Assembly (NCBI RefSeq): GCF_007753265.1
Contig: NZ_CP036349.1
Coordinates: 1,583,363 to 1,647,362, forward strand
Source: Botrimarina mediterranea
GTDB lineage: Bacteria > Planctomycetota > Planctomycetia > Pirellulales > Lacipirellulaceae
DNA length: 64,000 nucleotides
Reading direction: 5' to 3'
The notes below the pieces were generated by a model. It had not been told where the DNA came from. It was given only the letters and a program-made list of their open reading frames with translations, and did not search any database. Shown here one piece after another: positions 15,003 through 58,356 of this stretch. The first letter of the stretch is position 1. Each line of letters begins with the position of its first letter. The position numbers and the translations under genes were made by a program.

Positions 15003-15089
15003 AATTCCGCTACCTGACGGGCGCGGCTCGAAGTAACTCTCTATCAGGAGTTGCTCGTTGGAGCCGCGCCCGTGAGGAAGCGGAGTTCC
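15003..15089. repeat. Palindromic repeat pair, GAGCCGCGCCCG class
   Basis: Two inverted copies of GAGCCGCGCCCGT-N2-GGAAGCGG separated by about 29 bases, immediately after the surface protein gene. Single copies of the same unit occur at 26696-26722 and 27128-27158. Confidence 0.82.
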
Positions 15090-16142: not shown

Positions 16143-16221
16143 GCGAGCCCCGCGACGTTCGTTCAGGGAGTGACGTGGGCGCCCGCTTCCCACCGACGAC
16201 TAACGTCGCCGGCTCGCCGTC
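16143..16221. repeat. NGAG palindromic repeat (CGAGCCGGCGACG class), left arm decayed
   Basis: Right arm at about 16189-16221 reads, on the minus strand, CGAG-CCGGCGAC-GTTA-GTCGTCGG; the left arm is degenerate. It ends at the base before the stop codon of the CCA-adding enzyme (16222-16224). A complete copy is at 37075-37152. Confidence 0.7.
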
Positions 16222-24659: not shown

Positions 24660-25931
24660 ATGAGGACCAACCCACGAATGCCACGGGGTTTTACCCTGGT
24701 GGAGCTGCTGGTGGTGATCGCCATCATCGGCATCCTGGTGGCGCTGCTCTTGCCGGCGGTTCAGGCCGCCCGTGAAGCGGCCCGCCGCAACAGCTGCTTG
24801 AACAACATCAAGCAGCTCGGCCTGGCGCTGCAGAATCACCACGACACGAAGCTGTACTTCCCGTTCGCGGGCTCGGCGCCGGCGTTTACGGGCTCGGCTG
24901 GAACGGCAGGCACTATGTTGTCGGGGACAGCTCACCCAAGTAGCGATCCCACTCTCGCGAACGGCACGGCCCAACGAGATGCGACTCCAACTGACGGCTT
25001 CAGCTGGATCGTGCAAATCCTACCGTTCATCGAAGGCAACACACTCTCCGACAAGATCTCGGACGCCTCGAACAACATGAAGGGCGACGCTTTCGTCACT
25101 GCGACGAATATAGCGCCGGGCTACACGTTGGTTGGTGGCACCCAAGCCCGACAACCTAAGACGAATCCCTTCTTTTGGGAGGTTCAGCTCGAAGAGGCAA
25201 AGTGCCCGAGCTATGACGGTGACGATGTCGGCGGCCTTGCTGCAACCGGCGAACTTGCTTCTGGCAATTACGTCTGCTTGCCGGCAACCCATTACGCAGC
25301 TGCTGGGCAGGGGCGCGGTCCTCTCGCTACTTCGGCGCCGGCAGCGAATCCCGCGAAGCCCGCTGACTGTCAGAGCGGTGCCTTTTGCGGCAACGGCGCT
25401 CTGCCCTTCCCGGGGTTCGTCTCTGGTAGGATCAATCGCAAGGGTCGCAACATGGCAGCCCTACGTGATGGAACTTCGAAGACAGCGATGTTCGCCGAGT
25501 CGCGTGAGCAGCATTACTCTGGCTGGTACAGCGCCTATGCCTCGTATGTCGTTGGAGTTTGGCCGAATCGCCCCGCTACTCCGGTTGCCCCTCGGGCAGC
25601 AGTGGCTGGAGACCTAGGCGCGAACGGCACCGCGAAGGGGCCCGTGGGCACCTGGACGCTTGCTGGTGTGAAGGGCATTGCGCTGAATCAAGGCACCAAC
25701 AAGACTGGAACTTCGGGTAACGTTAACCAGGACACCATCTGGTACACGAAGGCCAATCAGTTTCCGCATAATACGAGCAAGGAGCGTAAGTGGGGGCCGA
25801 GTTCAAACCACCCGGGTGTGACGTTGCACGCCTTCGGTGATGGCCACTCGAGCCCGATCCGTGACGACGTGGAGGCAGACGTTTACCTCCACACGATCAC
25901 GGCCGCCGGCAACGAGCCCAGCTCGCTGTAA
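24660..25931 (+). CDS. DUF1559 protein with prepilin-type N-terminal leader
   Basis: 423 residues. The N-terminus [19 protein letters not shown] is a type IV pilin-like leader: cleavage after Gly10, Glu at mature position 5, then a 20-residue hydrophobic helix and the DUF1559 sequence [11 protein letters not shown]. The C-terminus keeps the family pattern SSNHPGV...[12 protein letters not shown]1559 proteins are a hugely expanded planctomycete family of pseudopilin-like exported proteins whose role is not established. A perfect ribosome site and a strong terminator make this a well-expressed single-gene unit. The central part is visibly less GC-rich than the leader, as often seen where the variable domain has diverged. 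Confidence 0.93.
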
Positions 25932-26029: not shown

Positions 26030-26099
26030 TGAGCCGTCGGCGCTAGCCGCGGGTGAAACCGGGTACCCACGTTCACCCGCGGCTAGCGCCGACGGCTCA
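26030..26099. repeat. NGAG palindromic repeat (TGAGCCGTCGGC class), copy 1
   Basis: Two inverted arms with TGAG-CCGTCGGC-GCTA-GCCGCGGG around a 16- to 20-base centre. Identical arms occur at 28342-28409. Lies between the DUF1559 terminator and the rhodanese gene. Confidence 0.9.
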
Positions 26100-26589: not shown

Positions 26590-26695
26590 GAACGGCGGTC
26601 AGCTTTTAGCGGTCAGCTTTCAGCGATCAGCTTCTTGAAGACGGCGGAGCCGTCCCTAAGTGCTGATCGCTGAAAGCTGACCGCTGACCGCCATA
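26590..26695. repeat. Inverted repeat built from GGTCAGCTTT units
   Basis: Left side has three tandem GGTCAGCTTT/GATCAGCTT-like units, right side their complements (GCTGATCGCTGAAAGCTGACC). The centre contains GACGGCGGAGCCGTC, itself palindromic. No other copy in the window. Confidence 0.8.
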
Positions 26696-26722
26696 AACTC
26701 CGCTTCCAAACGGGCGCGGCTC
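26696..26722 (-). repeat. GAGCCGCGCCCG-class palindromic unit, single copy
   Basis: On the minus strand GAGCCGCGCCCGTTTGGAAG followed by CGGAGTT. Same unit as at 15003-15089 and 27128-27158, here without an inverted partner. Confidence 0.75.
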
Positions 26723-27127: not shown

Positions 27128-27158
27128 TGAGCCGCGCCCGTTGGGAAGCGGAGTTCTC
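27128..27158 (+). repeat. GAGCCGCGCCCG-class palindromic unit, single copy
   Basis: GAGCCGCGCCCGTTGGGAAG followed by CGGAGTT. A degenerate inverted relative may remain at 27370-27396. Confidence 0.75.
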
Positions 27159-27490: not shown

Positions 27491-28336
27491 ATGCGGATCG
27501 TTCGCTTCCTCTGTAACGAAACCAAGGCTCCGGCGTGGGGCGTGCAACTCCCTAGCGGTGAGGTCCATTTCGCGCATGGCGACCCGTTCGACGGCGGGCT
27601 GACCGACACCGAGGAGGTTGTGAAGGCGCCTCAGCTCCTAGCGCCCCTCCAGCCGGCGGCGATCCTTTGTATCGGCCTGAACTACGCCGCCCACGCGGCC
27701 GAAGGGGGCCGCCCGGCGCCGGAGCGGCCGGTGTTGTTCATGAAGACGCCTTCGGCCGTGCAGCATCCGGGTGGGCCGATCGTGCTGCCGCGGCGGCTTA
27801 GGAGCACGCGCGTCGATTACGAGGCGGAGCTCGCCATCGTGATTGGCAAGCCGTGCAAGAACGTCTCACGCGCCGACGCGCTGGAGTATGTCCTCGGCTA
27901 CACCTGCGGAAACGACGTGTCCGCGCGCGACTGGCAGCGCAATGGCGGCGGCGGGCAGTGGTGCCGCGGCAAGACGTTCGACACGTTCGCGCCGCTCGGG
28001 CCCGCGTTGGTGACGACGGACGAACTCCGCGACGCCGGCGACCTGCGCGTGACGACGACCATTGGCGGCGAGTTGCTGCAAGACTCGCGCACCAGCGACA
28101 TGATCTTTAGCGTGCCGAAGCTGATCGAGTTCCTCAGCGCGAGCGTGACCCTGGCGCCCGGGACGGTGATCCTCTCGGGGACGCCCGAGGGCGTCGGCTT
28201 CGCGCGCACGCCGCCGCGGTGGCTCGAGCCCGGCGACGAGGTGACCGTTGAGATCGAGGGGATTGGGAAGCTGACCAATCCGGTTGTTGAGGAAGAGGCG
28301 GAGGAGTTGACGGAGTGGACTTTGAAGGACGAGTGA
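27491..28336 (+). CDS. Fumarylacetoacetate hydrolase (FAH) family protein
   Basis: 281 residues. Metal-binding residues of the FAH fold: Glu111 and Glu113 in DYEAELA and Asp142 in GNDVSARD; LSGTPEGVGF and KLTNPV near the C-terminus are further family marks. Members hydrolyse or decarboxylate beta-keto acids (fumarylpyruvate, acylpyruvates, oxaloacetate), and the precise substrate is not deducible. GAGG eight bases before ATG 27491 supports the start. No catabolic neighbours; ends six bases before a palindromic repeat. Confidence 0.9.
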   Translation: MRIVRFLCNETKAPAWGVQLPSGEVHFAHGDPFDGGLTDTEEVVKAPQLLAPLQPAAILCIGLNYAAHAAEGGRPAPERPVLFMKTPSAVQHPGGPIVLPRRLRSTRVDYEAELAIVIGKPCKNVSRADALEYVLGYTCGNDVSARDWQRNGGGGQWCRGKTFDTFAPLGPALVTTDELRDAGDLRVTTTIGGELLQDSRTSDMIFSVPKLIEFLSASVTLAPGTVILSGTPEGVGFARTPPRWLEPGDEVTVEIEGIGKLTNPVVEEEAEELTEWTLKDE

Positions 28337-28341
28337 CAAGG

Positions 28342-28409
28342 TGAGCCGTCGGCGCTAGCCGCGGGTAGCGCCACTTGTTGCTCAACCCGCGGCTAGCGCC
28401 GACGGCTCA
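28342..28409. repeat. NGAG palindromic repeat (TGAGCCGTCGGC class), copy 2
   Basis: Same arms as 26030-26099 with a different centre. Its last three bases are the TGA stop (minus strand) of the metallophosphoesterase. Confidence 0.9.
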
Positions 28410-33917: not shown

Positions 33918-34412
33918 GGGACGCGATTCCTCTCGTTAGCGAGACCCCCCGTTTGGGCGGTTTTCCTAGCCTCGCTTAGGAGGCTCTAGGAGGTCATTTA
34001 ACGCATCGGGAGCGGGGGGCCTGGGTAAACCCTAAGCGGAGCGCAACAACGCGCCTAAGGGCCCTCTATGCGGCTCTAGACGCATGTTCACGGCGCCGCC
34101 AGGTGGCCCACCATCCACCACCCTCCATCGGTACCCGTCTGAGCCGGGGGCGCGAGCCCTCGGTGGGAAGTGGGTACCAGGTTTCCCACCGAGGGCTCGC
34201 GCCCCCGGCTCAGACCCGTACCGATCGTTCGCAAGCTCTTCGGCTCGGGCCCTTCCGGCAGGATCGGGCACGCCGCTCTAACTGCCCCAAGCGGCATAAC
34301 CGTGGCTCTCGGTGTGCCTGGCTTCGGCGCGCCGGTGCATGAGCTAGCCTTTCGCGGAAGCGCTGCGGCCGCGATGGCTGCGCGCGGCATTTCGCCTGAA
34401 GGGCGCTCGACC
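33918..34412. other. Intergenic region with one long palindrome
   Basis: 495 bases between typA and the anchored coiled-coil protein. It holds the NGAG palindrome at 34137-34215; an imperfect inverted CCTAGCCTC / GAGGCTCTAGG at 33966-33992; no gene. Confidence 0.6.
34137..34215. repeat. NGAG palindromic repeat (TGAGCCGGGGGC class), perfect 32-bp arms
   Basis: Arms 34137-34168 and 34184-34215 are exact complements around 15 bases. Each arm reads TGAG-CCGGGGGC-GCGA-GCCCTCGG, a hairpin inside the hairpin. The best-preserved element of its kind in the window. Confidence 0.93.
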
Positions 34413-37074: not shown

Positions 37075-37152
37075 CGGCGAGCCGGCGACGTGAGTCGTCG
37101 GTGTGAAGTTGGCGCCCGGCGCCCACCGACGACTCACGTCGCCGGCTCGCCG
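37075..37152. repeat. NGAG palindromic repeat (CGAGCCGGCGACG class)
   Basis: Inverted arms CGAG-CCGGCGAC-GTGA-GTCGTCGG around about 18 bases. Its right end touches the stop codon of hemY (37153-37155). Confidence 0.92.
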
Positions 37153-51024: not shown

Positions 51025-51099
51025 GGAGCCGGAACGCGTTAGCGCCCGGAGTTGCGGCGGGTACCCACTTCGACTCCGGTCGCTTACGCTTCCGGCTCC
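51025..51099. repeat. NGAG palindromic repeat (GGAGCCGGAACGC class), copy 1
   Basis: Left arm GGAG-CCGGAACGC-GTTA-GCGCCCGG; right arm (minus strand) GGAG-CCGGAAGC-GTAA-GCGACCGG. The two arms differ but each keeps its own hairpin. Between the kinase gene and holB. Confidence 0.88.
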
Positions 51100-58268: not shown

Positions 58269-58356
58269 TCCGTGCGCTAACGCATCCCGGCTCGCTGCGC
58301 AACGTTAGACAAGCCTTCGCTGGCGCAGTGAGCCGGAACGCGTCAGCGCCCGGTGT
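58269..58356. repeat. NGAG palindromic repeat (GAGCCGGAACGC class), copy 2
   Basis: Left unit on the minus strand CGAG-CCGGGATGC-GTTA-GCGCACGG (58270-58294); right unit TGAG-CCGGAACGC-GTCA-GCGCCCGG (58329-58355). Here the NGAG ends face each other, opposite to the other pairs. Confidence 0.82.

Follow-up and report, generated by a model that had tools for sequence, protein, structure and literature searches.

Footed hairpin pairs of Botrimarina mediterranea as probable REP sequences of a class 3 Y1/HUH transposase system in Planctomycetota

The NGAG-footed hairpin units of the Botrimarina mediterranea genome very probably belong to a class 3 Y1/HUH transposase system, single units being its REP sequences and inverted pairs its REPINs; that the system is mobile is inferred. 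Demonstrated are the repeated foldable units, the occurrence of such units around members of one gene family in many Planctomycetota, and presence or absence of units between congeners. New here are the findings that the loops match the stable DNA tetraloop d(cGNNAg) and mostly violate the RNA GNRA rule, and that the stems track the transposase. A barely described transposase class thus gains a checkable recognition code of GAG foot, cGNNAg tetraloop (in many lineages) and lineage-specific stem, in a phylum whose REPs had, in those portions of the literature that were available, hitherto been little more than named.

Fifteen stem-filtered units were detected in the window, i.e. the whole 64-kb stretch analysed (G000:C1:1583363-1647362 of a single-contig genome, G000, of 5,871,207 bp); reversal of the window left none, and 100 single-base (not dinucleotide) shuffles within 100-nt blocks yielded 0.14 on average and 2 at most. 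The design that the first-pass annotation had described for seven places (NGAG, CCG-stem, C-GNNA-G, stem-CGG) was present at all seven (Table 1); the inverted pairing that it had also claimed held for six of them, with two intact units each, whereas at 16143-16221 the left unit was degenerate and the right one intact. Five intact pairs pointed their feet outward at a spacing of 22-26 nt, the pair at 58269-58356 being oriented oppositely. Four further units or near-units had been overlooked (the pair at 15007 and the near-units at 26691 and 27128); they share the form NGAGCCGCGCCC-GTNN-GGAAGCGG with an internal mismatch. A GGYRCC core was found in the spacer of 6 of 17 own REPINs (0.9 in shuffled sequence) and of 6 of 32 at transposase loci, duplicates included; as a REPIN spacer feature it is suggestive only. 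A search of the window against Rfam returned two tRNAs and nothing else. Positions 24680-24870 hold the start of a prepilin-like protein, presumably of the DUF1559 type, that matched dozens of places in all three congeners.

Table 1. Hairpin units, near-units and inverted pairs of the window (window coordinates)
Position	Strand	Feature	Basis
15007..15083		inverted pair, feet inward, stem type CGCCC-GTNA-GGNAGCGG	pattern, stem filter
16193..16216	-	intact unit CGAG-CCGGCGAC-GTTA-GTCGTCGG; partner at 16143 degenerate	pattern, stem filter, folding
26030..26099		REPIN, inverted pair of TGAG-CCGTCGGC-GCTA-GCCGCGG; GGTACC within the 24 nt spacer	stem filter, folding
26691..26714	-	near-unit, loop GTTT (outside GNNA)	pattern search
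27128..27151	+	near-unit, loop GTTG (outside GNNA)	pattern search
28342..28409		REPIN, stem type as at 26030	stem filter
34137..34215		REPIN TGAG-CCGGGGGC-GCGA-GCCCTCGG, 79 bp near-perfect palindrome	stem filter, folding
37075..37152		REPIN CGAG-CCGGCGAC-GTGA-GTCGTCGG, stem type flanking own-genome transposase L056	stem filter
51025..51099		REPIN, unlike units CCGGAACGC-GTTA-GCGCCCGG and CCGGAAGC-GTAA-GCGACCGG	stem filter
58270..58353 (place 58269-58356)		inverted pair, feet inward, spacing 34 nt	pattern, stem filter

Further genomic copies, on which the first-pass annotation had made its reading depend, number in the hundreds: The strict pattern matched 546 times in the whole genome (270 + 276), the reversed pattern 88 times (35 + 53). 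Placement was analysed in 864 kb (40 stretches and the window), where 80 units passed the stem filter and 10 were dropped. Sixty-two of the 80 were intergenic against a background of 11.9%; since genes were called by a simple longest-frame rule, the remaining 18 "genic" units may include spurious frames. The 60 units with a gene on either side lay between convergent (22), same-direction (34) or divergent genes (4), and the 24 close pairs comprised 16 with feet outward, 5 with feet inward (21 of 24 inverted) and 3 in tandem. High copy number with mostly extragenic location and the arrangement in inverted pairs, both criteria for REPs and REPINs, are therewith met, and the layout (5' foot, inverted pairs, intergenic placement) is REP/BIME-like. 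A foot of GAG alone did not raise hairpin numbers above the control in the own genome (1278 versus 1292 reversed), nor did a cGNNAg loop behind any foot (264 versus 283); hairpins that combine the two numbered 67 versus 11.

Folded as single-stranded DNA, each of seven single window units left its NGAG unpaired and closed its tetraloop, in agreement with the REP/REPIN criterion of a 20-40 nt palindrome with a conserved unpaired 5' foot. Taken singly, the units exceeded shuffled sequence in stability by a small margin only (z -1.2 to -2.9); the entire 34137-34215 pair formed one long hairpin (-51 kcal/mol, z -13.2). The foot was fixed by the pattern that selected the own units, in which the N of NGAG was C in 42, T in 34 and G in 4 of 80; a motif-free hairpin scan at transposase loci revealed CGAG as the commonest foot. 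Generally, RNA tetraloops of the GNRA type require a purine at the third position. With C or T as this base in 62 of the 80 own units, the RNA rule fails; the hairpins at transposase loci show the same in 124 of 209 cases. The motif d(cGNNAg) is listed as one of four stable DNA tetraloop motifs in the accessible part of a paper (PMC8373063, citing Nakano et al. 2002); from loops of GNNA rather than GNRA type it is inferred that selection acts on folded single-stranded DNA. As far as the consulted sections of another report go, the E. coli TnpA-REP is indifferent to the loop sequence and the Stenotrophomonas and Marinomonas enzymes are sensitive to it (PMC8266576). The loop rule is not universal, because 47 of 110 transposase loci possessed no cGNNAg hairpin in their flanks and most of the gene-embedded inserts described below use TTCA or TTTA.

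The first-pass annotation had regarded the stems as freely drifting, which cannot be maintained: They covary and follow the transposase lineage. Stem covariation amounted to 0.251 versus 0.090 in shuffled rows, a value reached by none of 500 shuffles (29 rows). Both the closing pair and the three outermost pairs are dictated by the pattern that chose these rows, so that only four inner pairs are informative, two of them unpaired in about half of the rows. Many stem types occurred among the units, in the own genome more than there are transposase genes. Transposase distance correlated with stem distance (Mantel rho 0.357, 0 of 999 permutations, n = 53, i.e. those of 70 kept loci with at least two hairpins), some near-identical pairs contributing to the correlation. 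Hairpins were scanned with gaps, rigid 8-bp stems being too blunt for stems that contain mismatches.

The genome contains five matches to PF01797: the IS200-type L001, the class 2-like L002, L003, L004 and L005, a broken copy. L058, detected by protein search, is a third class 3-like gene besides L003 and L004, the latter two being identical with L056 and L057. Y1 genes flanked by NGAG hairpins, in the manner that the first-pass annotation had suggested looking for, do exist: L056 and L057, two of the three divergent own Y1/HUH genes, carry NGAG units on both sides. At the L058 locus there was no NGAG unit, and a GTTA-loop hairpin without that foot was present instead. The other two class 3 genes were 29-35% identical to L056 and are not copies of one element; none of the three resides in a long host frame (open frames of 172-209 aa). 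Their motifs (L056 NHVH/YVLHRQ, L057 NHVH/YVLEGQ, L058 NHVH/YVTVAQ) satisfy the class 3 TnpA-Y1 criterion of HuH and Y-x4-Q. All of the first 30 Foldseek matches of the L056 structural model (pLDDT 89.5) in the PDB were Y1 HUH enzymes, 4er8 (a RAYT with REP hairpin) being the fourth; TM-scores were moderate (0.41-0.49 by query length). A sequence search of the PDB with L057 gave no match. The NCBIfam RAYT model NF047646 (cut-off 80 bits) was not passed by L056 (46.6 bits) and not matched by L057 and L058; the class 3 proteins also failed the IS200 model NF033573 (32 and 28 bits, cut-off 55 bits). The IS200-type gene L001 (G000:C1:1556894-1557238) is located about 26 kb before the window, and its locus contains none of the hairpin units. 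Leucyl-tRNA synthetase domain matches are located some 0.8 kb from L002 (G000:C1:939811-940188), a class 2-like Y1 gene with the motif YIEHNP; the three regex matches within its 3.3-kb locus resemble chance occurrences.

Beyond the own genome, 32 of 43 family genomes had a transposase match at 1e-6, the weaker of which are not necessarily class 3. At least 364 relatives were found in named genomes, and the best 80 of these were all planctomycete-named except L165. The latter, on a contig labelled Dehalococcoidia, has the same transposase and units, by transfer or wrong binning. Flanks of 350 nt on either side of 110 transposase loci (a number that includes two places twice) contained 115 NGAGCC units versus 6 in reversed flanks, with units in both flanks at 27 loci versus 0; motif-free hairpins in these flanks had a cGNNAg loop in 151 versus 3 cases and an NGAG foot in 72 versus 17. 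Distant relatives (L150, L151, L159, L141) kept the loop behind a foot of GTAG, CAAG or AAAG. Transposase matches and unit excess were modestly linked across the 43 family genomes (rho 0.41 with p 0.006 when strong matches alone are used, rho 0.33 with p 0.03 when all are), and the points are not independent because the genomes are related. The genus genomes possessed 546, 377, 124 and 28 units with 3, 6, 2 and 0 transposase matches, respectively. Despite transposases, there was little excess over control in G009 (124 units versus 106) and G024 (97 versus 92), and G040 (76 versus 149) and G034 (39 versus 98) fell below control, their stems perhaps deviating from the strict pattern. A unit excess without a transposase match was seen in G023 and G030 (83 and 85% complete).

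For the stem type at 37075 and 16193, cognate transposases were identified in the own L056 and in L091 of B. colliarenosi. The REPIN at 34137 is 92% identical to one beside the B. colliarenosi transposase L129 (G007:C7:31820), the type at 26030 and 28342 is similar to that of L063 of G005, the type at 15007 flanks the transposase L076 of G018, and those at 51025 and 58269 are close to units around a transposase at G004:C3:29558. With these cognates lying in other genomes, some window types have no cognate gene found in their own. The window block is syntenic in three congeners (G007, G008, G009). Between anchors, no unit was found in any of the three at 37075 and 51025, in G007 and G008 at 34137 (one regex match without cGNNAg hairpin in G009) and at 16143 (one regex match in G009), or in G007 at 26030, where the G008 and G009 intervals were too long to scan; G008 had chance-like cGNNAg hairpins without GAG foot at three of the sites 26030, 37075, 51025 and 34137. 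A related REPIN occupied the orthologous place of 28342 in G007. At the place of 15007, G008 had no unit, G009 one of another type and G007 a palindrome that differs from it by eye, and G007 REPINs near 26691 and 27128 are absent from the window. The pair at 58269 was left out for lack of two-sided anchors. Gain at the unit-free orthologous sites is the simpler reading and loss is not excluded; the congeners are too diverged for exact insertion sites, and no transposition was seen.

The idea of a planctomycete counterpart of REPs is supported, with the correction that this counterpart already has a name, as it fits class 3 of Quentin et al. 2018. According to the portions of that study that were at hand, class 3 TnpA-Y1 genes have the motifs H-u-H and Y-x4-Q, are accompanied by CnGA-footed hairpins and are proposed as intermediate between IS and REPtron (PMC6006769). 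The agreement extends to the HuH motif NHVH, a W, Y-x4-Q, the occurrence in Planctomycetes and the many-copy flanking hairpins; the nGA of NGAG overlaps CnGA with an offset of one base, the C being variable here and nGA constant. The enzyme fits class 3 TnpA-Y1, which makes this a known, if scarcely described, kind of REP/REPIN system. The loop rule, the link between stem and transposase and the in-frame residence reported here were not encountered in the available parts of the class 3 description. With classical REPs, BIMEs and REPINs of RAYTs (class 2) the units share foot and hairpin, inverted pairs, intergenic location and a dedicated Y1 enzyme nearby; they differ in the foot (NGAG with a GNNA loop, the class 2 (TnpA-REP) criterion of GT[AG]G not being met) and in an enzyme, L056, below the RAYT cut-off. 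From IS200/IS605 elements (IS608, ISDra2), whose fold and catalytic motifs are shared, the class 3 proteins are set apart by scores below the IS200 cut-off.

As a mechanism, it is proposed that the transposase would bind the single strand in its folded state, probably at the replication fork, and read three features, namely the NGAG foot, the loop C-GNNA-G and a portion of the stem; cleavage and rejoining near the hairpin foot would then copy or move REPINs, and the intergenic placement would result from selection against hits in genes. Alternatively, the units could mainly be RNA hairpins, acting as bidirectional terminators or mRNA 3'-end stabilisers, with the transposase link secondary. The rarity of placement between divergent genes and the frequency of convergent and same-direction neighbours would suit such a role, as would units close behind a gene end (28342 follows an ORF ending at 28336); a like placement is, however, known for REPs of other systems, the loops are of GNNA and not GNRA type, and the same units flank transposase genes on both sides, so that this explanation appears unlikely. 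A side role as RNA is not excluded, since many REPs of other systems are held to be transcribed by the authors of a study available in part (PMC3733652). Still less credence is given to the units being MITE-like remnants of an ordinary IS200/IS605 element. The fold shared with the IS608 and ISDra2 transposases, the presence of one IS200-type gene and the intermediate position proposed for class 3 (in the text seen of PMC6006769) are compatible with that origin; but the locus of this very gene lacks such units, the class 3 proteins score far under the curated IS200 cut-off, and the pairs are inverted and symmetric, whereas IS200/IS605 elements have two different ends.

In relatives, whole transposase genes with their hairpins were found in frame within host genes. 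Of 131 loci, some of them duplicates, 9 had a transposase frame that extended by at least 60 residues both ways, 7 of these with a Pfam host enzyme in the same frame. Matches at 1e-15 occurred in 53 of 114 genomes of the order of the Phycisphaerae genome G043, and among the 95 matches listed for it 28 had an open frame of at least 600 aa. A Pfam host was found in 26 of the 28 (the other two being L273, 616 aa, and one 658-aa frame left out of the host check): 25 split their host and one is a MutS N-terminal fusion. The 25 hosts were AlaRS (12, two in one frame), PurH (7), ValRS (4), LeuRS (1) and an MmeI-like protein (1), the latter two represented by L245 and L248 and PurH by, e.g., L249; an additional ValRS case in G044 lies outside the 95-match list. 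L250 (572 aa) and L247 (MutS) were rejected as insertions, only 11 and 79 aa preceding the transposase, and are N-terminal fusions. L096, L136, L239, L273, L280, L284 and L286 have long open frames without a Pfam host domain; L122, L146, L178 and L182-L184, with long N-extensions, were outside the host-domain check.

The insert positions are mostly few and recurrent. Compared with the uninterrupted ValRS of G000, the inserts L243 and L246 follow SDQWFV(R/K)..D and precede (G)LAQ or (G)LAT; L339 resembles them, L244 sits some residues later, and L335 (ValRS of G078) interrupts elsewhere, after model position about 460. In PurH, six breaks fell at PF01808 positions 131-135 and one at 127-133; AlaRS was broken, in six genomes examined, at PF01411 positions 262-266 (four) or 375-381 (two); blastp borders against G000 were obtained for 6 of 7 PurH and 2 of 6 AlaRS loci, Pfam borders being used elsewhere. 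The six inserts measured comprised about 226-324 codons, and all six inspected had GAG-foot hairpins at both ends, of the cGTCAg type as at window 15007 in L244 and with a TTCA or TTTA loop closed by C-G in L243, L245, L246 and L249 or a TTCA loop closed by G-C in L248. Among embedded or fused copies, H-u-H was intact in 20 of 21 (L279 lacks one histidine) and Y-Q in all 21. A tree of 77 chosen rows placed seven PurH, one LeuRS and three ValRS copies in one clade of 11, all members of which are known here only from inside these hosts; the fourth ValRS copy (L244) branched elsewhere, so that ValRS was entered at least twice.

Misassembly or wrong frames might have produced these cases, and indeed most genomes concerned look like metagenome assemblies and the flanking repeats favour such errors. 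However, the frames were open on both sides in all 25 split cases, and two PurH cases are on contigs (3,877,392 and 4,324,589 bases) that make up their genomes. All nine interrupted housekeeping frames tried passed NCBIfam whole-enzyme cut-offs: five ValRS (NF004349, 910-992 bits, cut-off 704), one LeuRS (TIGR00396, 1027 bits, cut-off 548), two PurH (NF002049, 565 and 595 bits, cut-off 402) and one AlaRS (TIGR00344, 871 bits, cut-off 457). The interrupted gene was the sole copy found for ValRS in G043-G045 (the other long class I frame tested being IleRS), for LeuRS in G045, for AlaRS in six genomes checked and for PurH in seven genomes, except that G068 has an extra 291-aa partial PurH frame near a contig end. 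An artefact is accordingly considered very improbable; mobility and working host proteins remain inferred.

Palindromes translated in frame within host proteins are known from intragenic REPs and Rickettsia palindromic elements. Those mostly encode 20-30 residues (clusters 43-82), and the sections available mention no transposase gene (PMC3733652); here a whole transposase gene with hairpins is embedded. No report of whole transposase genes in frame within housekeeping genes was found in the open-access literature, as far as its texts could be consulted. A more far-reaching reading, somewhat more likely than not, is that class 3 REPtrons (REP-transposase-REP) are translation-compatible, intein-like selfish cassettes without splicing that repeatedly enter the same few positions of single-copy AlaRS, ValRS, PurH and LeuRS, keep frame and catalytic residues and are maintained as removal must be exact, the intergenic REPINs of the window being the small, non-autonomous side of the system. 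From its in-frame position in Phycisphaerae housekeeping genes, it is inferred that the cassette probably can move as a unit and persist via co-translation. If the in-frame cases are borne out, housekeeping enzymes can harbour a transposase gene that is translated along with them. This touches on whether REPtrons move as whole units and on the way in which selfish DNA escapes loss.

Some single observations concern the same genes. PurH of G052 is divided between two contigs (one match at the contig end) at the usual insertion position, which suggests a hidden insert. In G043 (C11:45402-48656), a class I synthetase frame, probably LeuRS, is unusually long at 1326 aa, and L338 (G069) is an AlaRS frame of 1686 aa with two transposase domains. 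In L243, L244, L246 and L338, the translated REP units yielded recurring peptides, e.g. EPRPSGSG and PLPDGRGS (by eye), and in L246 similar peptides appeared in other host loops without transposase.
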